DNA from: [Pseudomonas] carboxydohydrogena
Lineage (GTDB): Bacteria; Pseudomonadota; Alphaproteobacteria; Rhizobiales; Xanthobacteraceae
Direction of reading: 5' to 3'
DNA length: 64,000 bases
NCBI RefSeq assembly: GCF_029030725.1
Contig: NZ_CP113162.1
Coordinates: 62,001-126,000 of the forward strand
Part shown: positions 4,574-51,227 of the stretch, piece after piece
Layout of the letters: each line of letters begins with the position of its first letter
How positions within the stretch are numbered: position 1 is the stretch's first letter
Position numbers and translations under genes: made by a program
Notes under the pieces: model-generated
Seen by the model: the letters and a program-made list of their open reading frames with translations, nothing else
Told to the model about the DNA's origin: nothing
The model's database searches: none

Positions 4574-5902
4574 TTAAGCCGGCAGCGTGCCGTTTTCCGC
4601 CAGCACATGGCCCGCGAGATAGAGCGAGCCGGTGATGAGAATGCGCGGCGGCGTCTCGTAGGCCATCGAGGCGACAAAGCTCAACGCCTCGCCGACATTG
4701 CGCGCGATGTCCGCGCGCATCTCCAGCGACCGCGCGATGGAAGCGAGTTGCTCGGGCGCCATCGCGTTGTCGTTGCCGGGGATCGGTACCGCGACCACAT
4801 GCCGGGTCAGGCCCGAGAAATTCGCGAGGAAGCCGCGCGCGTCCTTGTTGCCCATCATGCCTACGATCAACACCACGGGGCGCTCGATCCGCTCGCCGAG
4901 GTCCGCCAGCGCCGCCGCCGTGACGCGCCCGCCATCGGCATTATGGCCGCCGTCGAGCCAGATTTCGCAGCCTTCCGGCGCGTAGGCGAACAGAGCGCCG
5001 GACGGCAGCCGCTGCATTCGCGCCGGCCACTCGGCGCGCGCGATGCCCTGCTCGAACGCCGCGGGCTCGATGGCGAGAGAGTCGATCGCGCGCAGCGTGG
5101 CGATCGCCAGCCCGGCATTGTCGAACTGGTGACGACCGAACAAACGGGGCGCCGCGAGATCGAGCAGGCCGCGCTCGTCGGAATAGACGAGCCGTCCATG
5201 CTCGACGCCGACATGCCATTCCTGCGTCGCGGACGACAGCGGCGCGCGCAGCTTACGGGCCGTCTGTTCGATCACCGCCTGCGCCTCGGCCTGCTGCTCC
5301 GCCGCAATCACCGGCACGCCGCGTTTGATGACGCCGGCCTTCTCGCCCGCGATCTTGATCAGCGTGTCGCCGAGAAATTCCGGATGATCCATGCCGATCG
5401 GCGTAATCACGCTGGCGAGCGGCGCGTCCACCACGTTGGTCGCATCCAGCCTGCCGCCGAGGCCAACCTCGAGCAGCACCACGTCGGCGATATGCTGCGA
5501 GAACAGCACGAAGGCGGCGGCGGTTTCGATCTCGAACAGCGTGATCGGCGCGCCGCCATTGGCACGCTCGCACTGGGCAAACGCATCCTCCAGTTGCTCG
5601 TCGGTCGCAAGCACGCCCGCGACGCGGAAGCGTTCGTTGATGCGCACGAGATGCGGCGAGGTGTAAACGTGGACCCGCAGCCCCGCCGCTTCCAGGATCG
5701 CGCGCAGGAAGGCAACGGTCGAACCCTTGCCGTTGGTACCCGCGACATGGATCACCGGCGGCAGGCGACGCTCGGGATGATCCAGCGCCGCGAGGATGCG
5801 CTCGATGCGCGACAGATCGAGATCGATGCGCTTGGGATGCAGCGCCGTCAGCCGCGTCAGCAGATCGTCGAGCTCGCGGCGCGCGGGGACAGCGGCGCTC
5901 AC
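4574..5902 (-). CDS. folC: Bifunctional folylpolyglutamate/dihydrofolate synthase
   Basis: A Mur-ligase-like enzyme of 442 aa that adds glutamate to dihydropteroate and folates. The P-loop is [11 protein letters not shown] at about residues 52-62. Further family signatures are [12 protein letters not shown], a glycine-rich [15 protein letters not shown], the [13 protein letters not shown] metal-site segment and [10 protein letters not shown]. The start is a GTG whose GTGA overlaps the accD stop, so the two are probably translationally coupled; an upstream in-frame ATG (6007) would lie far inside accD. Confidence 0.94.
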
Positions 5903-6906: not shown

Positions 6907-7743
6907 CTATTGCGCGCCGGGCTTTGACCCGCGCACTCCGGCAGCGAGCGCCGCCACCAAATCTGTGACCGCCGGGACCGTCTTCGCGCTGGCTTTCCCG
7001 TCCGCATCGAGCGTGGCGCGCAGCGCATCGATCAGCGCCGAGCCGACCACCGCGCCCTCGCCATGCCGCGCGATGCGCGCCGCAGCCTCCGGCGTGCGGA
7101 TGCCGAAACCGACGCAGACCGGAAGTTGCGTGTGACGCTTGATCCGCGCCACCGCCTCGCCGACCTCTTTGTCGTCGGCAGCGGCCGAGCCGGTGATGCC
7201 GGTGATGGAGACGTAATAGACAAAGCCCGAGGTATTGGCGAGCACCGCCGGCAGGCGCTTGTCGTCGGTGGTCGGCGTCGCGAGACGGATGAAGTTCACG
7301 CCCGCCTTCAGCGCGGGAATGCAAAGCTCTTCGTCTTCCTCCGGCGGCAGATCGACCACGATGAGGCCATCGACACCGGCGGCTTTCGCGTCCACCAGAA
7401 ACTTATCGACGCCGTAGATGAAGATCGGATTGTAGTAGCCCATCAGCACGACCGGCGTCGCGGGCTCGGTCGCGCGGAAGTCGCGCACCACCTGCAATGT
7501 CTTTTTCAGCGTGGTGCCAGACTTGAGTGCACGCAGGCCCGCGGCCTGAATCGCGGGACCGTCCGCCATCGGATCGGTGAACGGCATGCCGATCTCGATC
7601 ACGTCGGCGCCCGCCTTCGGCAGCGCCTTGAGGATTTCGAGCGAGGTTGCGAGGTCCGGGTCGCCGCACATTAAGAAGGTGACGAGCGCCGCGCGGCCCT
7701 CTTTCTTCAGTTCGGCGAAACGGGTGTCGAGGCGCGTGGTCAT
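6907..7743 (-). CDS. trpA: Tryptophan synthase alpha chain
   Basis: A 278-aa TIM-barrel subunit that cleaves indole-3-glycerol phosphate to indole, which is channelled to TrpB. Catalytic acids are visible as E50 (DVIEIGMPF) and D61 (DPMADGP). The phosphate-binding loop [11 protein letters not shown] and the GSALIDAL segment are present. The ATG at 7743 forms an ATGA overlap with the trpB stop, so I prefer it to the upstream in-frame extension, which lies inside trpB. Confidence 0.96.
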
Positions 7744-29173: not shown

Positions 29174-30862
29174 TCAAGCCACCCGCACGGCGCTGATGAA
29201 GTTCACGACCTCTGATTTCAGCCGGCCGGAGTCCTGCGCCAGGGATTGCGCCGCGGCGAGAACCTGCGACGAGGCCGATCCGGTCGCGATCGCGCCACGC
29301 TGGACCTCCGTGACGTTGGACGACACCTGCTGCGTGCCTTCCGCCGCGTGCTGCACGTTGCGCGCGATCTCCTGCGTCGCCGCACCCTGTTCTTCGACAG
29401 CCGCCGCAATCGCCGACGAGATTTCGGACAGCCGTTCGATCGTGCGTCCGATCACCCTGATCGCCCCGACCGACTGCTGCGTCGCGGCTTGAATCCCCGA
29501 GATCTGCTGATCGATTTCGCCGGTTGCCTTGGCCGTTTGCTCGGCCAAAGCCTTCACCTCGGCGGCCACGACGGCAAACCCCCGTCCGGCCTCACCCGCC
29601 CGCGCCGCTTCGATAGTGGCGTTCAGCGCCAGCAGATTGGTCTGGCCTGCGATCGTATTGATCAACTCGATCACATCGCCGATTCGGGTTGCGGCCTTGG
29701 AGAGCTCGCCGACATGCTCATCCGTCAGGTGCGCCTGGGCAACGGCTTCCTTCGCAATTTCTGCGGATTCCTGAACCTGACGGCTGATCTCGGAAACCGA
29801 AGACGACAACTCCTCGGTCGCCGAAGCCACCGACTGGACATTGGCCGAAGCCTCTTCCGACGCCGAGGTCACAAACGTGGCAAGTTCACGCGAACGATCT
29901 GCCGTCCGCGTCAGGCTGTCGGCGGAAGCCTCCAGCCCGCACGATGCTTCGGAAACAGTTTCCACGATTTCACCGATCGCTGCCTCGAACTGCGTGGTCA
30001 ATGCCTCAAGACGTTTGGCGCGCTCGATCTTCCCTTGGGCATCACGGGCGGCTGCCTCGTCCGCCGCTTTCTTGGCGATCAACGCATCCTTGAAAATCTG
30101 CAACGCCACCGCCATCGATCCGATTTCCGTCTTTTCTCCGCCCTGTGGAATTTCGGCTGTCAGATCACCGCGACCAAGCGCCCGCATCGGGCGGACAATC
30201 GAGCCGATGGAAGATGAAATGTCGCGAATAAACAGAAAGCCCGCGATGGCGGCCAGAAGGATAGCCATCACAAGGACGGAGCAAACGATCCTGAAAGCCC
30301 AAAGGTGGCCCTCTTCTGCGTTTCTCGTTTCTGCTTTCGCGCCGTTATCATTGATCTCGATGGCTTTCGTCAGATACCCGTCCGATTCGTTCGCCACCGG
30401 ACGAACCGTCTTGATGAAAAGGTCTCTGGCCTGCTGAGCGGAGGCAGCATCGCCCTTTCGGGACAGCGCCAAAACGGCATCGGTCTCCTCGACATATTTT
30501 GTCCAGGCGCGCGACCAGTCGTTGAACAGCTCGCGCTCCTGCGGCGAAGACACCAGCGCCACGTAAGAATCGCGCGTCTGCGCGATTAACGCGAGGGTCT
30601 TTTTCATAACCTTGTCGAGAGTGGCGCGCTCCTTGTCATTATCAGCCATCATGTAGGCCCGGAGCTGCGCGCGGTTCAAATTGATTGCAGAGCGCAATTC
30701 GCCGAGATGACGAACGCTTGGCAGCCAGACCCTGGTAATGTTCGCCGTATGACCGCTCAGAACCTGAACGCTATGAAGTGCGATAGCTCCAAGCCCCGCC
30801 ATCGACAGAAGAAGCAGAGCAATGACGGCGATCAATTTTGACCGGATCGAGATGTTTGGCAT
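29174..30862 (-). CDS. Methyl-accepting chemotaxis protein
   Basis: A 562-aa chemoreceptor. It has a first membrane helix ([20 protein letters not shown]), a periplasmic four-helix-bundle sensor with no obvious extra domain, and a second helix ([20 protein letters not shown]). A HAMP domain ([18 protein letters not shown]) and the signalling hairpin with its tip ([40 protein letters not shown]) follow. The ligand cannot be told. The start [10 protein letters not shown] at 30862 fits a membrane insertion signal; the longer frame to 30913 adds a polar stretch. Confidence 0.93.
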
Positions 30863-33485: not shown

Positions 33486-33746
33486 TCAACGAAGGCTTGC
33501 GCCGTTGATGAGGTTGGACGTTCGTTCACACGACCATGTGCCCGTTTTAGGTCCGCCGCGATAGTTGCAAGCTTTCGGGCCGAGATGCCGAGTAGCGACC
33601 CAGTTCTGGGGCGAGACCGTAGGAATCATCCGCTCCGCGGCCGTAGTCCGAAGACCAGAATCGGTCTTGGTCGCATGCGCAAAGCTTGGCGATGCGGAGG
33701 CGATCAGGAACAGCGACAGTAATGCAACCCTGTTTGATTTGCCCAT
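33486..33746 (-). CDS. Small secreted protein of unknown function, sigma-F-type promoter
   Basis: An 86-aa protein with a clean Sec signal peptide (ALLSLFLIASASPSFA, cleavage before HATKTDSG). The mature part is 60-odd residues with two cysteines (KACNYRGG and TWSCERT). A GGGAGA site precedes the ATG. A GTAACC-N16-CGAA promoter on the same strand ends 55 bp upstream. I do not recognise the family. Its placement suggests a metal-stress-induced periplasmic protein. Confidence 0.7.
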   Translation of the reverse strand: MGKSNRVALLSLFLIASASPSFAHATKTDSGLRTTAAERMIPTVSPQNWVATRHLGPKACNYRGGPKTGTWSCERTSNLINGASLR

Positions 33747-33773: not shown

Positions 33774-34076
33774 TCACAGCATGGACCTCATGTAAATGAG
33801 TTCGAACGTGAGGTCTGACGGGTTACAGGTCACGACGATGTGAGCGCGACCGTGCATACTTAGAGCCGAGCGGAAGCAGTGATCGAGATATGCCCCGTTT
33901 TCGACGCTCTGGTGTTCCCCGGCCGTCTCGGTTGATTTGTCCGACAACGCCAGACAGACCGAGCCCATCGCCGTTGCGATACTGCAATTTGCCCCGGCCA
34001 AAGGCACGCTATAATCTTGGGTGAGGTACCGAAGCGTTGAATGATACGATCGATGCACCCAAGCTGTTGCGCTCAT
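33774..34076 (-). CDS. Hypothetical protein (100 aa)
   Basis: A reading frame starting MSATAWVHRSYHSTLRYL with an AGGAG site 12 bp upstream. Its codons keep a GC-rich third position (about 69 percent in the 42 codons I counted), which favours real coding. It contains four cysteines (NCSIATAMGSVC, DHCFRSAL, VTCNPSD). The 3' end overlaps the promoter of the secreted-protein gene downstream. I recognise no family, and it could still be a chance frame. Confidence 0.4.
   Translation of the reverse strand: MSATAWVHRSYHSTLRYLTQDYSVPLAGANCSIATAMGSVCLALSDKSTETAGEHQSVENGAYLDHCFRSALSMHGRAHIVVTCNPSDLTFELIYMRSML
33801..33844 (-). promoter_or_regulatory. Predicted ECF (sigma-F-type) promoter, copy 4
   Basis: On the minus strand: CTCAC-N6-GTGAC, one base, TGTAACC, 16 bases, CGAA (CGAA at 33804-33801). 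It matches the three + strand copies except for the last palindrome base and a spacer one base shorter. It points at the small secreted protein gene starting at 33746. Confidence 0.65.
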
Positions 34077-34120
34077 CTTTTGTGACTTCTCCTGAACTTC
34101 GCCTGTCGCAGCCACCTGCA

Positions 34121-34165
34121 CTCACTATCTCGTGAGTCTGTAACCACGGGCATTGTCCGTTCGAA
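34121..34165 (+). promoter_or_regulatory. Predicted ECF (sigma-F-type) promoter of the sigma factor operon
   Basis: CTCAC-N6-GTGAG (34121-34136), then TC, then TGTAACC (34139-34145), 16 bases, CGAA (34162-34165). The -10 lies 16 bp before the sigma factor ATG, which has its own GAGGGAG site. This would be autoregulation. Confidence 0.75.
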
Positions 34166-34180
34166 TCTAACGAGGGAGAG

Positions 34181-34735
34181 ATGACAAAGGAGTCGGACCT
34201 CAAAGCGCTCATGACGGCGAGCCTCGAAGGCGACTCCAACGCGCATCGATTACTGCTGACGACTTTGGGCGGACATCTGCGGAGCTACTACAAGACCAGG
34301 CTTTTGCGATCCGGGCGGACAGCCGAGGAAACTGAAGACCTCGTGCAGGAGGCCTTGATCGTCATCCATACGCAACGTCACACCTACGATCCGGAACAAC
34401 CGCTGACGCCGTGGGTATACGCTATTGCCCGCTACAAGCTCATCGACCATTTGCGACGCACCAGGGCTACGACGGCGGACGTACCGTTAGAAAACGCCGA
34501 CAACATCCTGGCATCGGACGACAATGCTGCCGCAGAAAGTCAATTCGACCTTTCCAAGCTATTGGAAAGGTTACCGGAACGAATGAGACTTTCGCTCCAA
34601 TACGTGAAACTCGAAGGCTTGAGTGTAGCCGAAGCCGCCGATCGTAGCGGGATGTCGCAATCTGCCGTCAAAGTGAATGTTCACCGTGGGTTAAAGATAC
34701 TCACCGCGTTAATTGCTCGGGAGACAAAGGCGTGA
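34181..34735 (+). CDS. sigF: ECF RNA polymerase sigma factor (SigF-like)
   Basis: A 184-aa group 4 sigma factor. Region 2 runs LGGHLRSYYKTRLLRSGRTAEETEDLVQEALIVIHTQRHTYDPEQPLTPWVYAIARYKLIDHLRR. Region 4 holds the helix-turn-helix (ERMRLSLQYVKLEGLSVAEAADRSGMSQSAVKVNVHRGLKIL). Its stop overlaps the next gene's GTG start as GTGA, an NrsF-type anti-sigma factor. In Caulobacter a SigF/NrsF pair responds to heavy metals. It probably recognises the four GTAACC-N16-CGAA sites here. Confidence 0.9.
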   Translation: MTKESDLKALMTASLEGDSNAHRLLLTTLGGHLRSYYKTRLLRSGRTAEETEDLVQEALIVIHTQRHTYDPEQPLTPWVYAIARYKLIDHLRRTRATTADVPLENADNILASDDNAAAESQFDLSKLLERLPERMRLSLQYVKLEGLSVAEAADRSGMSQSAVKVNVHRGLKILTALIARETKA

Positions 34736-35373
34736 AAACCAACGAATTGATTTCCATGCTCAGCTCACAGGTTGATCCGGTCGATACGCAAGAGGTCGTC
34801 CGGAATGTTCGGATTGCAATCTTGATAGGAGCTGCGGCATCCCTGCTGGTGGTGGTTTTTATCCTCGGCGTTCGCACCGACCTCGATGAACTGCACGCTC
34901 AAGTCTTTCTGGTTGCAAAACTGGCCTTCAGTTTGTCGGTCGTGATTTTGGCCTCGCATTATCTGGTCAAGTACATCCGCCCCGGCGGCGAATTCCGGGT
35001 CCGGTTCGCCCTCACCGTCCTACCGTTTCTCGCAGCCATGATCATTGCGGCCATCAATCTGGCCACGGCACCACGGTCACACTGGGAGACCATGGTGTTC
35101 GGCAGTTACTGGCTCGAATGCCTAATCGCCGTCCCCACGGTCGCGGTCGTACCATTCGCCACAATCATGGCGGCAGTCCGCCTCGCCGCCCCGACCGATT
35201 TGGTCCGCACCGGTGCGCTGGCCGGGCTGGTCGCGGGCGGCGTCAGCGCGACCGCCTATGCTTTGCATTGCATGGATGACCTGCTTCCCTTCATTGCGCT
35301 CTGGTATGGGGGCACGATCGTTTTGTGTACGGTCGCTGGCGCCGTGCTCGGCCCCAAACTGCTGCGTTGGTAA
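34732..35373 (+). CDS. nrsF: NrsF family membrane anti-sigma factor
   Basis: A 213-aa protein with six predicted membrane helices and the DUF1109/NrsF pattern (MKTNELISMLSSQVDPVD at the start, PLxRSHWETMVFG-type middle, YALHCMDDLLPFIALWYGG). C130 and C180 fall where the two cysteines critical for signal sensing lie in the Caulobacter protein; a third, C199, is also present. It would hold the sigma factor at the membrane until metal or oxidative stress releases it. It is translationally coupled to the sigma gene. Confidence 0.88.
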   Translation: MKTNELISMLSSQVDPVDTQEVVRNVRIAILIGAAASLLVVVFILGVRTDLDELHAQVFLVAKLAFSLSVVILASHYLVKYIRPGGEFRVRFALTVLPFLAAMIIAAINLATAPRSHWETMVFGSYWLECLIAVPTVAVVPFATIMAAVRLAAPTDLVRTGALAGLVAGGVSATAYALHCMDDLLPFIALWYGGTIVLCTVAGAVLGPKLLRW

Positions 35374-35544
35374 GGTTGGCATTGGCCGCGCTCGGCATTG
35401 CCCGGTGAAAAGACAAAATCCTTACTCCGTCTACACCAATGAGAGCTGAAGGTCGGGGCGGCGCGGATGAGCGCCGCCACGAAGGAAGACAGCACGTCAC
35501 CTGTTTGTCCCCGCCGAGAAGAGAAAACTGCTTCTCCGGTCGGT

Positions 35545-35589
35545 CTCACGAGAGCGTGAGCTTGTAACCGGCATGCGCCCCTTCGCGAA
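35545..35589 (+). promoter_or_regulatory. Predicted ECF (sigma-F-type) promoter, copy 2
   Basis: CTCAC-N6-GTGAG (35545-35560), CT, TGTAACC (35563-35569), 16 bases, CGAA (35586-35589). It lies 67 bp before the small membrane protein gene at 35657 and could also transcribe the Met-rich gene behind it. Upstream, a GC-rich hairpin (35457-35478) may end nrsF transcription. Confidence 0.75.
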
Positions 35590-35656
35590 CTAACGGATGA
35601 TGATCGCCCTCTTAAGCAAGCGGCGAGGGTGCAGGTGCATGGCAGGAGACGCAACC

Positions 35657-35950
35657 ATGACATGGTTAACGTCGGCATTGGATCGACAAGACCTGCGGCG
35701 CAGGATTCCCGATGCGTTTGGTTTTTGTAAACGCACGCTGTGGCTGCTTTTGGCTGCATTGGCGTTGCTTGCCGGAGTCGCGTTCAACTGGCGGTGGCTC
35801 GTAGCATCAGGTGTCCTGCCATTTCTCCTGCCAGCCCTTCCCTGTCTGGCCATGTGCGCCCTGCACCTATGTTCTCATGGCAACGATGCCTCGGGATGCG
35901 ACGAGCGGAGCGTCGCAGTTTGCCCCAAACCGTACCGCAGCACGCATTGA
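35657..35950 (+). CDS. Small Cys-rich membrane protein of unknown function
   Basis: A 97-aa protein. A polar N-terminus (MTWLTSALDRQDLRRRIPDAFGFCK) is followed by two hydrophobic helices (TLWLLLAALALLAGVAF and LVASGVLPFLLPALPCLAMCALHLC). The second ends in a CxxxCxxxxC series, then a short tail with two more cysteines. The LPCLAMCALHLC motif resembles small proteins seen in other metal islands. GGAGA lies 7 bp before the ATG. The likely role is metal handling at the membrane, by inference. Confidence 0.7.
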   Translation: MTWLTSALDRQDLRRRIPDAFGFCKRTLWLLLAALALLAGVAFNWRWLVASGVLPFLLPALPCLAMCALHLCSHGNDASGCDERSVAVCPKPYRSTH

Positions 35951-35986
35951 TCACCGATCCGTGCCATCCTTTAGAAAGGCAACAAA

Positions 35987-36259
35987 ATGAAGATCACCAC
36001 CACTCTCATCCCGCTCGCATTGATTGCGTCGTTAGCGGCTTCTGCCGCCGTCCAGGCGGACGAAACGTCCACGCCATCGAATCCGCCGCCAGAAACCAAT
36101 CAACCCATGATGGGCAACGGCTCACAGGGCATGCAGGAAATGATGGGCATGATGAGCCAAATGAAGCAGATGATGAAAAGCTGCAATCAAATGATGAAGG
36201 CCAGCAACGAACGTCACGACAAGCAAAATGCACCGAAGCAAAAAGACCATCACGGCTGA
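35987..36259 (+). CDS. Small secreted Met-rich protein, putative copper-binding
   Basis: A 90-aa protein with a signal peptide (TLIPLALIASLAASAAVQA, cleavage before DETS). The mature region of about 66 residues contains twelve methionines, mostly as MM pairs spaced 2-4 residues apart (MMGNGSQGMQEMMGMM, KQMMKSCNQMMK), one cysteine and a His-containing tail. This is the profile of a periplasmic Cu(I) chelator. It starts 36 bp after the membrane protein gene and probably shares its sigma-F-type promoter. No named family recognised. Confidence 0.75.
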   Translation: MKITTTLIPLALIASLAASAAVQADETSTPSNPPPETNQPMMGNGSQGMQEMMGMMSQMKQMMKSCNQMMKASNERHDKQNAPKQKDHHG

Positions 36260-36526
36260 AACAGTCGCCGTCCGATCGCCATGCCGGTCGATGAATTTTG
36301 CACACCCGGAAGGGCGCCCATAAATCGTTCGGCCTCGGCATTAATCGACTTCGGAGCATCGAACGACCATTCAGGTGGGTCTTTCACATCGGCGTGAGCC
36401 TGTAACCGGTCCGGAGTCCGATGCGAAATAATCGGTGGTTCGTTTGCAAATAGGATTTTCGATCCGGTGCACTGATGTGCCCGGCAGAACACAGCTCGGT
36501 CGATACAGAGGGATAGCCAGAACATC
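36260..36526. other. Leader region before cusB
   Basis: The 267 bp between the Met-rich gene and the next ORF hold the third sigma-F-type promoter (36383-36427) and then a leader of about 200 nt to cusB. Minus-strand frames here are not convincing. Confidence 0.5.
36383..36427 (+). promoter_or_regulatory. Predicted ECF (sigma-F-type) promoter of cusBAF
   Basis: TTCAC-N6-GTGAG (36383-36398), CC, TGTAACC (36401-36407), 16 bases, CGAA (36424-36427). The geometry is identical to copies 1 and 2. It points at the 36-aa ORF and cusB. Confidence 0.72.
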
Positions 36527-36637
36527 ATGGAACGGGCGACCTACTTACGATCGCTTCCCGGACTGGCATCGTTTCTGCCGGAAAGACCTAATCAGGTTCA
36601 GTTGCGGCATTCCGCAGCAGTGCCAAGGGTACACTGA
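36527..36637 (+). CDS. Possible 36-aa leader ORF coupled to cusB
   Basis: A short frame, MERATYLRSLPGLASF onwards, whose TGA overlaps the cusB ATG as TGATG. This is the geometry of translational coupling. The nearest purine-rich site (GAGGG) is far from the ATG, so initiation is uncertain. No homology recognised. Confidence 0.3.
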   Translation: MERATYLRSLPGLASFLPERPNQVQLRHSAAVPRVH

Positions 36638-38151
36638 TGGATAAGTTGACTGAACACCGTCCATTCGAGGATGGACGCGTGAGGCCCCGCGCCCAAACCG
36701 GAAGATCGACCGCGAAACGGATCGCGCTCCTTGCGTTTGCAATAAGCGCACTTGTCGCAATGCTGGGAGTTGGCTATCGACTCGGTCACGCTAACCAAAC
36801 GTTACCTAGCTGGGTTCCGCTTCGTGTCGCAGCCCTCCTCGGATCCCAGCCCGCCAAGCCCGCGGTAACCGGTCCGATCATTTACTACCGCGACCCCGAC
36901 GGCAAGACGCTCTATTCCAAGAACGCGAAGACGACACCGGACGGGCGTCCGTATATTGCAGTCTATGCCAACGAAGATGTCAGCTTCGATAACCCTTCGG
37001 AAACTGCGGCGCCGGCCCAGGACACCGGAGCCAAGCGGATTCTCTTCTATCGCAATCCGATGGGCCTGCCCGACACCTCTCCTGTTCCGAAGAAGGACTC
37101 AATGGGGATGGACTACATCCCCGTGTACGAAGGTGAGAACGACGCCTCCACGATCCAGATTTCACCGGGCAAGCTGCAACGCACCGGCGTCCGATCGGAA
37201 CCTGCCTCCCTGCGCACCGTGACACGGCCCGTTCGTGCTCCCGGAACGATCAAGCTCGATGAGCGACGCGTGGCCGTCGTCTCGTTGAGAGCGCAGTCGT
37301 TCATCGAGAGCGTCGAGAACGTCACTACAGGCGATCACGTCACCAAGGGGCAACCGTTACTGAAGCTATATTCGCCCGATGTGGCGGCTGCGGGTGCCCA
37401 ATACCTGTCCATCGTCAGCGACAGCGGTGGAACGGCCAATCTTGCTGGGCGCAAGCAACTGATCGAAGGCGCACGGCGGCGGCTCGAGAACCTAGCCGTA
37501 CCCGCCAGCGTGATCGCCGAAATCGATCGTACCAAAACGGTCCCACTGACCATAACCTGGACGGCCCCGCGCGATGGCGTGATTCTGGAGCGAACGGCGA
37601 TCGAGGGCATGCGGGCGATGCCGGGCGACGTGTTGTTTCGACTGGCCGACACCTCCGTGATCTGGGTGATCGCTGACGTCGCCGAACAGGATATCGATGC
37701 CGTGAAGATCGGCGCGGCAGCGACGATCAAGGTTCGCAGTCTGCCGGGTCGGGTATTCAAAGGATCTGTCGCTTTGATCTATCCTGAGGTGAACACGCAA
37801 ACGCGAACCACCAAGGTGCGCATCGAACTCCCCAATCCTGACGGCGTGCTTCTCCCCGATATGTTCGCCGACGTCGAAATCGCGTCCGGTGCCGAAAAGC
37901 CCGTGATCGCAGTACCAAACGGCGCGGTGATCGATACCGGAGCGCGGCAGATCGTTTTCATCGACAAAGGTAAAGGCCGTTTCGAGCCACGTGAAGTCAA
38001 GGTCGGCACACGTGGCGAGGACTACACCGAGATCCGCGAGGGTGTCGACGAAGGCGATCTCGTCGTAGTCGCCGCCAACTTCCTGATCGATGCCGAAAGC
38101 AACCTGAAATCGGCTTTGCAGGCATTTACAGATGGAGAAAAATCGAAATGA
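36637..38151 (+). CDS. cusB: Copper efflux RND periplasmic adaptor (CusB)
   Basis: A 504-aa membrane-fusion protein. It has an N-terminal anchor helix (IALLAFAISALVAMLGVGYRLG). Two tandem heavy-metal-binding-like segments follow: a degenerate IIYYRDPDGKTLYSKN and a canonical ILFYRNPMGLPDTSPVPKKDSMGMDYIPVYEGE, which carries the Cu-binding Met/His-type motif. Barrel, lipoyl and beta domains complete it (GTIKLDERRVAVVSLRAQSFIESV, GQPLLKLYSPDV, WTAPRDGVILER). It links CusA to an outer-membrane channel. Its stop overlaps cusA (ATGA). Confidence 0.93.
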   Translation: MDKLTEHRPFEDGRVRPRAQTGRSTAKRIALLAFAISALVAMLGVGYRLGHANQTLPSWVPLRVAALLGSQPAKPAVTGPIIYYRDPDGKTLYSKNAKTTPDGRPYIAVYANEDVSFDNPSETAAPAQDTGAKRILFYRNPMGLPDTSPVPKKDSMGMDYIPVYEGENDASTIQISPGKLQRTGVRSEPASLRTVTRPVRAPGTIKLDERRVAVVSLRAQSFIESVENVTTGDHVTKGQPLLKLYSPDVAAAGAQYLSIVSDSGGTANLAGRKQLIEGARRRLENLAVPASVIAEIDRTKTVPLTITWTAPRDGVILERTAIEGMRAMPGDVLFRLADTSVIWVIADVAEQDIDAVKIGAAATIKVRSLPGRVFKGSVALIYPEVNTQTRTTKVRIELPNPDGVLLPDMFADVEIASGAEKPVIAVPNGAVIDTGARQIVFIDKGKGRFEPREVKVGTRGEDYTEIREGVDEGDLVVVAANFLIDAESNLKSALQAFTDGEKSK

Positions 38152-41100
38152 TCGCCCGCCTGATCGCCTGGTCGGCGCGGAATCTCATGCTCGTCCTGAT
38201 CGGGACCGTGTTCGCAGTCACAGCGGGTATTTATGCACTGCGCACCCTGCCGCTCGACGCCATCCCCGATCTCTCCGACGTACAGGTCATCGTCTACACT
38301 GAATACCCCGGGCAAGCGCCCCAAGTCGTCGAAGATCAGGTCACCTATCCGTTGACGACGGCGATGCTGACGGTGCCGAAATCGAAGGTGGTGCGGGGCT
38401 TCTCGTTTTTCGGCGCGTCTTTCGTCTACGTCATTTTCGAAGATGGCACCGATCCATATTGGGCTCGCAGCCGCGTGCTGGAATATCTCAACACCGTAGC
38501 GCGCAGACTCCCGACGGGTGTGACCCCAACTCTTGGGCCTGACGCAACCGGCGTTGGATGGGTCTATCAATACGCCGTTGTGGCCAAGAACATGACCCTT
38601 GCTGAACTGCGTTCCCTCCAGGATTGGACCATCCGTTATGGAATCTCCAAAGCCGAAGGCGTCGCGGAAGTGGCCAGCGTCGGCGGCTTCGTCAAGCAAT
38701 ACAACATTGTCGTTGATCCACAAAAATTGCGCGCCCAGGGCATTTCCCTGGACAAGCTTCGCAGCGCCGTCCGGGCGAGCAACATGGATGTCGGCGGGCG
38801 CACCGTGGAGCTGTCCGAGTTTGAATTCGTCGTCCGCGGCCGTGGCTACCTCAGAGGCATCGAGGACATCGAGAACATCGTTCTGAAGACTGATGCGGGC
38901 GCTCCGCTTCGATTGCGGGATGTTGCGCGCGTCGAACTTGGTCCTGACGAGCGCCGCGGCATTACCGAACTCAACGGCGACGGCGAAGTCGTCAGCGGTA
39001 TTGCGCTGCAACGGTTCGGCGCCAATGCTCTCACCGTGATCGACAACGTCAAGGCGCGCCTCGCAGAGATCGCCTCAAGCCTGCCCAAGGGCGTCGAGAT
39101 CATCCCAGTCTACGATCGCTCCGAACTCATCAAAGCTGCCATCAAGACGCTCAAGGGCACCCTGCTCGAAGAGAGCATCATCGTTGCCTTGGTTTGCTTT
39201 GTCTTCCTGCTTCACCTGCGCAGCGCCCTCGTTGCCATCCTAATGCTCCCCGTCGGCATCCTGATGGCGTTCGCGGCCATGAAGTTCATGGGGCTTGGCG
39301 CCAACATTATGAGCCTCGGCGGCATTGCCATCGCGGTTGGCGCTATGATCGACGCGGCGATCGTCATGATCGAAAATGCGCACAAACATCTCGAGCGCGC
39401 GGAGCCTGGCACACCGCGGATGCAGATCCTGATCGATGCGGCCAGCGAAGTCGGGCCGTCGCTATTCTTCAGTTTGTTGGTGATCACCGTCTCGTTCTTA
39501 CCGATCTTTACCTTGGAGGCGCAGGAAGGACGCATGTTCGGGCCGCTCGCCTACACCAAAACCTTTTCGATGGCTGCGGCCGCCCTGCTCTCGATCACGC
39601 TGGTGCCGGCTCTCATGGTCATCTTTGTCCGCGGGCGCATCATCTCGGAACACAAGAATCCCGTGAACAGGTTCCTGATCTGGGTGTATCGACCGGTGAT
39701 CCGGTGGGTTCTCAAGGCGAAGACATTGACGATCGTACTTGCGCTGGCGGCGCTGGCGGTGACGATCTGGCCCGCCCGCCAACTCGGCAGCGAGTTCATG
39801 CCGACCCTCAATGAAGGCACCCTGATGTACATGCCGACAACGCTGCCCGGCCTGTCCATCACCAAGGCTGCTGAGCTGTTGCAGACCCAGGACCGCATCA
39901 TCAAGTCATTCCCCGAGGTTGCGTCGGTCTATGGCAAAGCGGGCCGCGCCTCGACCGCCACCGACCCGGCGCCGACCGAAATGTTCGAGACCATCATCAA
40001 TTTGAAGCCGAAGTCGGAATGGCGGCCTGGCGTAACGATCGACAGCCTCAAGGCCGAGATGGACAAGGCGCTGCAGTTTCCGGGGGTCTCAAATGCGTGG
40101 ACGATGCCGATCCGCGCCCGAATCGACATGCTGTCGACCGGAATCCGCACGCCCGTCGGGATCAAGATTTTCGGCAAGGATCTTGCGGAAATGGAGAAGC
40201 TCGCCCGCGAAGTCGAAGGGGTGGTCAAATCGGTGCCTGGTACCTCAAGCGCCTATGCTGAGCGCGTGATTGGCGGATACTATTTGGAGATCATTCCCGA
40301 TCGTTTGGCGTTGGGCCGCTACGGGTTGACGATCAGCGACGTCCAAGACGTGATCGCCACGGCGCTGGGCGGCGAAACCGTCACCACGACGGTCGAAGGT
40401 CGGGAACGCTACGCCGTCAACATCCGGTATCCGCGCGCATTGCGCTCTAGCCCACAGACGATCAGCACCGATGTCCAGGTACCGCTGGCGTCCGGTGGGA
40501 GCGTCCCGCTCGGCCAGGTCGCCAGCGTGAAATTGACCCGCGGCGCCACCTCGATCCGCACCGAGAACGGTCAACTCGCGGTTTACATTTACGTCGACAT
40601 TACCGGTCGCGATCTGGGCGGCTACGTCGCCGAGGCGCAGCAGGCGGTCGCGCAAAAAGTAAAATTTCCGCCGGGCTACTACGTCTCCTGGAGCGGACAA
40701 TTCGAGTATCTGCAGCGTGCCGAAGCGCGACTCAAGATAGTCGTGCCGGTGACTTTGCTGATCATCTTTCTGCTGCTCTACCTGAATTTCCGGAAACTGG
40801 CGGAAACCCTGATCGTGATGCTGTCATTGCCGTTTTCGTTGGTCGGCGGCATTTGGTTGATGTGGTGGCTCGGATTCAACATGTCGGTCGCGGTCGCCGT
40901 CGGCTTCATTGCGCTTGCGGGTGTCGCGGCCGAAACCGGCGTCGTAATGTTGATCTACCTCGAGCAGGCCATGTCCGAATTGAAGGCGAAACGATCGGCC
41001 GCTGGAGAGCAGTTCACGCGTGCCGACCTGTACGATGCGATCATGCTTGGCGCGGTGGACCGGGTACGGCCCAAGATGATGACCGTCGTCGCCATCATGG

Positions 41101-41348
41101 CGGGCTTGGTACCGATTCTCTGGAGCACGGGGACCGGCTCGGAGGTGATGCAGCGAATTGCCGTGCCGATGATCGGCGGCATGGTTTCCTCGACCGTGCT
41201 GACCTTGGTTGTCATTCCCGCGATCTTCGCGGTGGTCAAGGGAATCGGATTGCCCGCCGTGCCGTGGCAGGACAGCGACGAGAAAGGTACCGGACATCGA
41301 GGCCCGACGCGAACGCTCGAACTGCACCATACGGAGAATGTGCAATGA
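38148..41348 (+). CDS. cusA: Copper/silver efflux RND pump (CusA)
   Basis: A 1066-aa proton-driven inner-membrane pump. It has the HME-RND layout: TM1, porter domain, TM2-6, second porter domain and TM7-12. The N-terminus (LPLDAIPDLSDVQVIVYTEYPGQAPQVVEDQVTYPLTTAML) and TM4 (NIMSLGGIAIAVGAMIDAAIVMIENAHKHLE) are of the monovalent Cu/Ag class, unlike the DFGxIVDG of CzcA. It overlaps cusB and leads into cusF. Confidence 0.95.
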   Translation: MIARLIAWSARNLMLVLIGTVFAVTAGIYALRTLPLDAIPDLSDVQVIVYTEYPGQAPQVVEDQVTYPLTTAMLTVPKSKVVRGFSFFGASFVYVIFEDGTDPYWARSRVLEYLNTVARRLPTGVTPTLGPDATGVGWVYQYAVVAKNMTLAELRSLQDWTIRYGISKAEGVAEVASVGGFVKQYNIVVDPQKLRAQGISLDKLRSAVRASNMDVGGRTVELSEFEFVVRGRGYLRGIEDIENIVLKTDAGAPLRLRDVARVELGPDERRGITELNGDGEVVSGIALQRFGANALTVIDNVKARLAEIASSLPKGVEIIPVYDRSELIKAAIKTLKGTLLEESIIVALVCFVFLLHLRSALVAILMLPVGILMAFAAMKFMGLGANIMSLGGIAIAVGAMIDAAIVMIENAHKHLERAEPGTPRMQILIDAASEVGPSLFFSLLVITVSFLPIFTLEAQEGRMFGPLAYTKTFSMAAAALLSITLVPALMVIFVRGRIISEHKNPVNRFLIWVYRPVIRWVLKAKTLTIVLALAALAVTIWPARQLGSEFMPTLNEGTLMYMPTTLPGLSITKAAELLQTQDRIIKSFPEVASVYGKAGRASTATDPAPTEMFETIINLKPKSEWRPGVTIDSLKAEMDKALQFPGVSNAWTMPIRARIDMLSTGIRTPVGIKIFGKDLAEMEKLAREVEGVVKSVPGTSSAYAERVIGGYYLEIIPDRLALGRYGLTISDVQDVIATALGGETVTTTVEGRERYAVNIRYPRALRSSPQTISTDVQVPLASGGSVPLGQVASVKLTRGATSIRTENGQLAVYIYVDITGRDLGGYVAEAQQAVAQKVKFPPGYYVSWSGQFEYLQRAEARLKIVVPVTLLIIFLLLYLNFRKLAETLIVMLSLPFSLVGGIWLMWWLGFNMSVAVAVGFIALAGVAAETGVVMLIYLEQAMSELKAKRSAAGEQFTRADLYDAIMLGAVDRVRPKMMTVVAIMAGLVPILWSTGTGSEVMQRIAVPMIGGMVSSTVLTLVVIPAIFAVVKGIGLPAVPWQDSDEKGTGHRGPTRTLELHHTENVQ

Positions 41349-41512
41349 CGGCGAAACAGCTTCACAAGAATTGCGCACCGAAAACGGCGGCAATGGACGC
41401 GAAGACGATCCTAGCGGATTCAGTTCGTTCGCTCATCACCCTATCCACGCCCACCGTGGCATCCACAAATCATCACGCCAAACAGGAGAATATCAATGTA
41501 TTACGTCGATAA
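41345..41512 (+). CDS. Possible 55-aa ORF between cusA and cusF
   Basis: A frame starting MTAKQLHKNCAPKTAAMDAK with its ATG overlapping the cusA stop as ATGA, and running 17 bp into cusF. It has no signal or known motif. It could be a small coupled protein or a chance frame bridging the gap. Confidence 0.25.
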   Translation: MTAKQLHKNCAPKTAAMDAKTILADSVRSLITLSTPTVASTNHHAKQENINVLRR

Positions 41513-41906
41513 CCATCGCCGGACCCAACGTGCCGGAGTTCTTGCTGCCACGCTGCTCGGTGCCGCATTGACGCTGCAGGCAGGCGCCACTTTCGCTCAG
41601 GGAGGCGCGGGCATGTCCGACATCAATGGCATGAAGAACATGAAGAAGATGGCGCCGATGAGCGACGCGAAGGAGGTAAGGAGCGCGACCGCCTCCGGCA
41701 CGGTCACGGCGCTGAACGCCGCGGATCACAAAATCACCTTCGATCACGGCCCAATTCCGGCTATCGACTGGCCCGCCATGAAGATGGAGTTCGCTGTTGC
41801 ACCGTCGGTCGATCTCGCGAAGGTGAAGACCGGAGACAAGGTGAATTTCACCCTGAGCGGCTCCGGTGGCACCTATACCGTCCAGTCGATCACACCGACG
41901 CCCTGA
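41496..41906 (+). CDS. cusF: Periplasmic copper chaperone CusF
   Basis: A 136-aa exported protein with a signal peptide (LAATLLGAALTLQAGATFAQ) and a Met-rich linker (GMKNMKKMAPM). The OB-fold CusF domain follows, with the Cu(I) site in full: H84, W92, M95 and M97 (DHGPIPAIDWPAMKMEF), the same spacing as E. coli H36/W44/M47/M49. It delivers Cu(I) to CusCBA. AGGAGA precedes the ATG. Confidence 0.94.
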   Translation: MYYVDNHRRTQRAGVLAATLLGAALTLQAGATFAQGGAGMSDINGMKNMKKMAPMSDAKEVRSATASGTVTALNAADHKITFDHGPIPAIDWPAMKMEFAVAPSVDLAKVKTGDKVNFTLSGSGGTYTVQSITPTP

Positions 41907-49769: not shown

Positions 49770-51227
49770 TCAATTGCCTCCGCCGCCGGCCTGGGCGGTC
49801 GTCGTCGGACTGGACTTCGTTGGTGTTTCTCCCGAGCCGCCGCCGTTGACGGCGGTCTGCAGGTCGGATTGGGCGAGCCAGAAGCTGCGCTTGGCTTCGA
49901 TCGCCGCGCGCAATGAGGCGGTGCGCTGCCGCGCTTCCGTCAACAGTGTGAACACGTCCACCTGCATGCTCGAAAAGCGCAGTTGCATCTCTTCGGTGAT
50001 AATCTTCCGGAGCGGCAGAACCTCGCGCTCGTACTGCCGGGCGATCTCATAGCTCGATCGATACGTCCGGTACGCGTCACGCGCTTCCGAGCGCACGTTG
50101 ATCGCCTTCTCGGTCAGACGATTGAAGGCCTGGTTGTAGGTCTCGCTCGCTTGCCGCACCCGGACCTCGCCGCCGTCGAAGATCGGGATCTGGAACTGGA
50201 TGTCGAAGCCGCGTTCGCGGGACCGGGAGCCATCGGGGTTCCTGGTGGTCTTCGAAATTCCCGCAACATCGAGCAGCGTGACGAAACGGCTCGCTTCCGT
50301 CAGATTGAGCGCTTTTGCCAAAGCAACCAGTTCGATACGGGCGATCTGTAGATCGATACGGTGTTCAACGGCGTCGACTTCGATGCGTGGCAAGGTCTGC
50401 GGACGCGGCGGCAAAGCCGGCAGATGGCTCGGCAGCTTGAAATTGAGATCGCCGTCCCACAGCCCCAACAGCCGTGCCAGAGCTTCGCGCGAACTGGTCG
50501 CTTCCTGACGCACCGTCGCAAGGTCCGCTGTGGTTTCCGCATAGAAGACCTGCTCACGCGCCTGATCGAGTTTGTTCATCGATCCGGTCTGGCCAAGGTT
50601 CTTCGACAATTGCGCGATGGATTCGGCGGTGGCCTTGGCGTCGCTAAGAAGGCCGACCAGTTCGTTTGCGGCAACCGCGCGGTAGTAAGCACGTCTGACA
50701 TCGGCGGCAAGGCGAAGTGTTTCCAGGGCGGCGCGAAGCTGTGCCTGATGGAAACGCTGTTTTGCGATTTCGGATCGGAACGGTAGCGTCGCAAGTGCGA
50801 GGATGTCTCCCACGATCTGGCGCTCGATCTCGGTCGCGCCATTGCCCGAAATGCGCGAGACTGAGAACGTCGGATTGGGCGGCAGGCTTTCCTGGACACG
50901 ATCGGCTTCCGCCAATGCCAATTCATTGTATGCGGCCTGCAAGCCGCGATTGTTGAGCAGCGCGACCTGAACGGCGGTATCAACATTGAGCGTCCGGCGT
51001 AGCAAATGCTTGACTCTGTCGCTGGTCTGCTGCGCCTCATCCACCGAGCGGATCGCGATCACATCCTTCTTGATCGTATGGTCGGCGACATCGGCGACGA
51101 CGCCCATTCCCAGATCCGGCGAGAAGGTCGCACAACCAGAAAGAAGGAGGGAAACGGTGAGTGCCAACGCCGACCGATTGTTTCGGAGGAGGCTCTGATG
51201 CGGCAGCACGCCACGGATAATTTTCAT
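49770..51227 (-). CDS. cusC: Outer-membrane efflux lipoprotein, CusC-like
   Basis: A 485-aa TolC-family channel with a lipobox (LLLSGCATF). The paired coiled-coil repeats are typical (VQVALLNNRGLQAAYNELALAEADRVQESLPPNPTFSVSRI, FDIQFQIPIFDGGEVRVRQASETYNQAF). It should complete CusBA although it is encoded on the opposite strand, 10 kb away. It is the only RND outer-membrane channel in the window, so CzcBA may use it too. The C-terminus is Ser/Thr/Gly-rich. Confidence 0.9.
   Translation of the reverse strand: MKIIRGVLPHQSLLRNNRSALALTVSLLLSGCATFSPDLGMGVVADVADHTIKKDVIAIRSVDEAQQTSDRVKHLLRRTLNVDTAVQVALLNNRGLQAAYNELALAEADRVQESLPPNPTFSVSRISGNGATEIERQIVGDILALATLPFRSEIAKQRFHQAQLRAALETLRLAADVRRAYYRAVAANELVGLLSDAKATAESIAQLSKNLGQTGSMNKLDQAREQVFYAETTADLATVRQEATSSREALARLLGLWDGDLNFKLPSHLPALPPRPQTLPRIEVDAVEHRIDLQIARIELVALAKALNLTEASRFVTLLDVAGISKTTRNPDGSRSRERGFDIQFQIPIFDGGEVRVRQASETYNQAFNRLTEKAINVRSEARDAYRTYRSSYEIARQYEREVLPLRKIITEEMQLRFSSMQVDVFTLLTEARQRTASLRAAIEAKRSFWLAQSDLQTAVNGGGSGETPTKSSPTTTAQAGGGGN

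Follow-up and report, generated by a model that had tools for sequence, protein, structure and literature searches.

The SigF-NrsF system of Caulobacter crescentus, which belongs to ECF16, provides the published frame for the locus described here. Its SigF-binding sequence is GTAACC-N16-CGAA, and a conserved SigF-dependent sequence is found upstream of all genes of the SigF regulon; the role of NrsF and of the NrsF cysteines was shown in the same organism (PMC3511200). Copper induces the Caulobacter SigF regulon, and a sigF mutant is copper-sensitive (PMC8224329). The targets are MsrPQ and bufferin (DUF2282/DUF692) clusters, and Buf1 bufferin clusters contain sigma and NrsF genes (PMC12452194). 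A second ECF16 pair, BcrS-AbcS of Brucella, combines the sigma factor with a DUF1109 anti-sigma factor, a TGTAAC/CGAA promoter and a Met-rich small protein as target; it serves a HOCl response with MsrPQ, and no copper pump is reported among its targets (PMC8315932). Copper genes are also controlled by the CorE-type ECF sigma factors of Myxococcus, in which copper is sensed via a Cys-rich C-terminal extension of the sigma factor itself (PMC10141476), while in Escherichia coli the cusCFBA efflux genes are associated with the two-component system CusRS.

In the window, that is, the whole 64-kb stretch of [Pseudomonas] carboxydohydrogena DNA that was analysed, the -35 and -10 consensus with its spacing, the sigma-nrsF operon, its putative autoregulation and the two NrsF cysteines are as in Caulobacter, whereas the targets are cusBAF and other small proteins. 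Copper induction of SigF in Caulobacter is thus already known, and what is different here is the target set, with cusBAF instead of bufferin genes. A bufferin-type (Buf1) regulon is ruled out, since the genome contains no match to DUF692 (PF05114), the MNIO enzyme gene. The locus shares with Brucella the ECF16 sigma factor, the DUF1109 anti-sigma factor, the promoter type and the Met-rich target, and differs from it in the copper pump; it shares with CorE the control of copper genes by an ECF sigma factor, but has a separate NrsF membrane anti-sigma factor in place of the extension. The efflux components CusA, CusB and CusF are common to E. coli and the window, which however uses a sigma/anti-sigma promoter instead of a two-component system and has no cusC among the operon genes; a gene for an outer-membrane efflux protein is located at 49770-51227 on the other strand. 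We found no report of sigF-controlled cus operons in the open-access literature, which is no proof of novelty. We propose, with a probability of about 0.8, that the locus is a copper-resistance module which is mobile and brings along an ECF16 sigma/anti-sigma switch of its own, driving four promoters, among them that of cusBAF. The proposal is based on the promoter motifs and the plasmid copies, on the sigma/NrsF pair with its conserved cysteines, and on an inverted repeat. In this way a published copper-responsive sigma/anti-sigma system is carried beyond small metal-binding peptides to a full efflux pump, and the switch is seen to move on plasmids together with its own targets. Two testable points arise, namely an inverted-repeat-binding protein and the role of a family of small exported proteins.

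The sigma factor (184 aa, 34181-34735, + strand) scores 320 bits against NF009191 (cut-off 171), with Sigma70_r2 and r4_2 also above cut-off. Regions 2 and 4, the adjoining DUF1109/NrsF gene and GTAACC-N16-CGAA in front of both sigF and the target genes assign it to ECF16 (SigF). The NrsF-type (DUF1109) membrane anti-sigma factor follows at 34732-35373 on the same strand (PF06532, E 4e-58). With 85 bits it remains below the 300-bit cut-off of the NCBIfam equivalog AntiSigF_NrsF, and so shares the Pfam family of Caulobacter NrsF without being its equivalog. A second ECF sigma/NrsF pair is located at 2.2 Mb (L053, 7620-8806) and could allow cross-talk or a division of labour. As the controlling sigma factor of the locus it was rejected, because it is only 37% identical, is preceded by a different sequence (GTAACA...CGTA) and has no exact motif.

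Four exact GTAACC-N16-CGAA sites are present, and the positions and strands given for them in an earlier sequence-only reading are all exact. The first, at 33801-33826 on the - strand, precedes a gene for a small exported protein, with 54 bp from CGAA to the ATG; the second (34140-34165, +) precedes sigF-nrsF at a distance of 15 bp; the third (35564-35589, +) lies before two small-protein genes; and the fourth (36402-36427, +) is found 209 bp before the start of cusB. That reading had correctly named the sigF-nrsF operon and cusBAF behind these sites, but had counted two small-protein genes where there are three. The resemblance to the Caulobacter SigF consensus that it had pointed out is exact, the sequence being identical to the published one (PMC3511200). 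Dependence of the four promoters on SigF is predicted from the motif, and the distribution of the motif across 199 genomes of the family is in agreement with this. TGTAACC-N16-CGAAYT occurs in 24 of the 26 genomes with a close SigF homologue (E <= 9e-60) as opposed to 11 of the 173 others (Fisher p 2e-20, although the genomes are not independent), and the motif is missing from the four genomes of the window's own genus that lack a close SigF. When orthologous promoters of the mobile lineage are compared, neither the -35 nor the -10 box shows any change, as opposed to 5 to 12 variable positions among the 16 of the spacer.

Upstream of the -35 box, the window and related loci have in common an inverted repeat with the consensus CTCACG-N4-CGTGAG, centred 11.5 bp upstream of GTAACC. 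In a comparison of 98 distinct upstream regions, this is the only centre with a peak of dyad symmetry: 29 sites have at least 5 of 6 pairs, as opposed to 0-5 for every other centre. We attach no formal p value to this peak, since the repeat came to notice only when alignments were inspected and the sites share common ancestry. All four window promoters have it. Before the promoter on the - strand it is located at 33829-33844 (GTCACGACGATGTGAG on the +, CTCACATCGTCGTGAC on the - strand), where its distance from the -35 box is about 1 bp shorter than at the other three promoters; it is found upstream of the sigF promoter at 34121-34136 (CTCACTATCTCGTGAG), as a perfect repeat upstream of the small-protein promoter at 35545-35560 (CTCACGAGAGCGTGAG) and in imperfect form upstream of the cus promoter at 36383-36398 (TTCACATCGGCGTGAG). 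In descending order, the agreement of the copies with the consensus is 12/12, 11/12, 10/12 and 10/12 letters, the last being the copy at 33829-33844, which is shifted by 1 bp. The repeat is absent from the Methylobacterium, Caulobacterales and Burkholderiales sites examined (the C. crescentus promoters were not among them). Outside the window lineage, it is missing from many sigF self-promoters but present at the promoter that follows nrsF. Its fixed place beside the -35 box implies a putative dimeric regulator acting with the polymerase. We regard it as slightly better than an even bet that control is dual, with a dimeric DNA-binding protein on CTCACG-N4-CGTGAG acting together with SigF, in which case the conjugatively spread copper module would carry, or borrow from its hosts, a second input. 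The regulator was sought via other genomic copies of the repeat, but no candidate emerged from those examined, none of which has a sigma-F promoter.

The pump genes comprise cusB, encoding an RND periplasmic adaptor (36637-38151, +; PF16576, E 2.7e-71), cusA (38148-41348, +) and cusF, encoding a periplasmic copper-binding protein (41496-41906, +; PF11604, E 4e-26). With 1251 bits against TIGR00914 (cut-off 701) and CusF as partner, CusA is assigned to the CusA/CzcA family of heavy-metal RND pumps. Among the 50 sigma-factor rows examined, 24 have a cusA homologue no more than 10 kb from sigF; they come from Afipia, Bradyrhizobium, Nitrobacter and Methylobacterium relatives. However, the motif stands directly before cusB only in the window lineage, with copies in the window itself, Nitrobacter winogradskyi, plasmid 2 of N. 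hamburgensis, pOC167 of Afipia carboxidovorans and genome G050; in the related copy L041, CGAT replaces CGAA, and in the more distant loci L044 and L050 the motif is found about 500 bp upstream. Most cus-linked sigF loci outside this lineage have no motif within about 700 bp before cusB, and therefore direct SigF control of the pump would be largely a feature of the mobile lineage and not general. The same absence, together with the inverted repeat adjoining all four window promoters, favours an alternative in which the sigma-F promoter is a minor input to cusB and the pump is mainly controlled by the repeat-binding regulator or by a distant one-component copper sensor. We consider this rather unlikely, as the mobile lineage keeps the cusB motif while the spacer diverges, and no other copper-gene regulator was recognised among the window ORFs examined. 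No response regulator (PF00072) is present anywhere in the window, which bears out the earlier statement that no two-component CusRS is nearby. Positions 36428-36636 form a 5' leader of cusB of roughly 200 nt, with insertions of variable length between relatives. An ORF in this leader that overlaps the cusB start (36527-36637) was rejected, because relatives differ by indels of any length and the frame is broken in N. winogradskyi.

The mechanism that we favour, direct control of all four promoters by the SigF-NrsF switch, would begin with NrsF, a six-helix inner-membrane protein, keeping SigF inactive. C130 and C180 of NrsF, possibly together with H117 and E129, would sense a surplus of copper in the periplasm, or another thiol-reactive metal, and SigF would be released. 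Free SigF would then guide RNA polymerase to the four TGTAACC-N16-CGAA promoters and thereby to its own operon, the small exported protein on the - strand, the membrane/Met-rich small-protein pair and cusBAF, probably with modulation of all four by the dimeric regulator at the repeat by the -35 box. C130 and C180, which correspond to C131 and C181 of Caulobacter, are both present in 44 of 44 homologues. The predicted NrsF model (pLDDT 90) shows six long helices, and their order would put the two cysteines in loops that both face the periplasm. By analogy with Caulobacter (PMC8224329), copper would be the inducing signal in [Pseudomonas] carboxydohydrogena. However, copper may not be the direct signal, because ECF16 systems elsewhere answer HOCl or oxidants (PMC8315932). 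The switch might accordingly sense oxidants (HOCl, ROS), with the Met-rich protein as a sacrificial methionine scavenger and the copper genes induced only via copper-driven oxidation. Such a role would match the Brucella ECF16 system, which answers HOCl and controls a Met-rich protein and MsrPQ (PMC8315932), and Bradyrhizobium EcfF, which answers ROS (cited in PMC8315932). It is nevertheless improbable here, where the targets are a copper pump and small Cys/His/Met proteins within a copper-gene island; moreover, the Caulobacter SigF genes are induced by Cu (PMC8224329) but not by agents that generate ROS (PMC3511200). All 11 close homologues have H117 and E129, and none of the 8 distant ones does; this restriction to the close lineage fits a metal site, but is no proof of one.

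The sequence-only reading had called the cluster very unlikely to arise by chance, and the counts agree. The four exact matches in the 64-kb window all lie within 2.6 kb (2,627 bp), as opposed to 0.03 expected in the window from dinucleotide shuffles, none of 100 of which gave four. A genome-wide scan, as that reading had suggested, returned seven exact matches in 3.27 Mb, four of them being the window cluster; the reversed pattern, used as a control, gave five. The three exact sites outside the island lack the T directly before GTAACC, which is present in 34 of 34 aligned sigF self-promoters, and were therefore rejected as regulon members and are probably due to chance. Near-matches with up to 2 mismatches are not in excess in the window (9 including the four exact ones, 10.3 expected). 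That the four sites are chance or non-promoter repeats is refuted at the sequence level and has a negligible probability, given about 0.003 sites expected per 2,627 bp at genome background against 4 observed, their fixed place before genes and their conservation in relatives.

The copper-resistance module is mobile. Plasmids carry matches to the entire segment, with about 86% DNA identity, and the same module (L136, L137) is present on A. carboxidovorans OM5 pOC167 and on an N. hamburgensis X14 plasmid, both typed as conjugative. SigF shares 90-91% identity with copies from Nitrobacter and other genera, as opposed to at most about 65% within its own genus among the genomes searched. Near 30 kb of the window, the GC content goes down from about 0.64 to 0.58, and this drop from about position 30000 is consistent with a large acquired metal island. 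The claim that a copper pump and small proteins stand under a sigma/anti-sigma pair is supported, since the motif tracks the sigma factor and precedes cusB in related copies; the sequence-only reading was thus essentially right, but had overlooked the mobility, the inverted repeat, the missing cusB motif in most other sigF-cus loci and the family to which the small exported protein belongs.

This protein (86 aa, 33486-33746, -) ends in CxYRGGPKTGxWSC and has no Pfam or NCBIfam match. It belongs to a family, named here Y-x-GGPK, of exported proteins of about 75-110 aa with a C-terminal Y-x-G-G-P-K, for which there is no Pfam family. In Afipia, Bradyrhizobium and relatives, the genes directly follow sigma-F promoters, and the family is present in 18 of the 26 genomes with a close SigF as opposed to 5 of the 173 without, a comparison with some circularity, as the rows of the alignment had been chosen from sequences downstream of motifs. 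The N. winogradskyi gene (L040, 9989-10253) looks broken, as it matches in two separate pieces. The other two small proteins, a Cys/His-rich membrane protein of 97 aa (35657-35950, +; PCLAMCALHLC) and an exported Met-rich protein of 90 aa (35987-36259, +; MMGMMSQMKQMMKSCNQMM), are conserved in related loci. All three would presumably have roles in the copper response. A further sigma-F-type promoter precedes a membrane-protein gene in three related loci, at 5689-5714 (-) in L041, 2371-2396 (-) in L042 and 7139-7164 (-) in L056, and this gene is possibly an additional regulon member in relatives.
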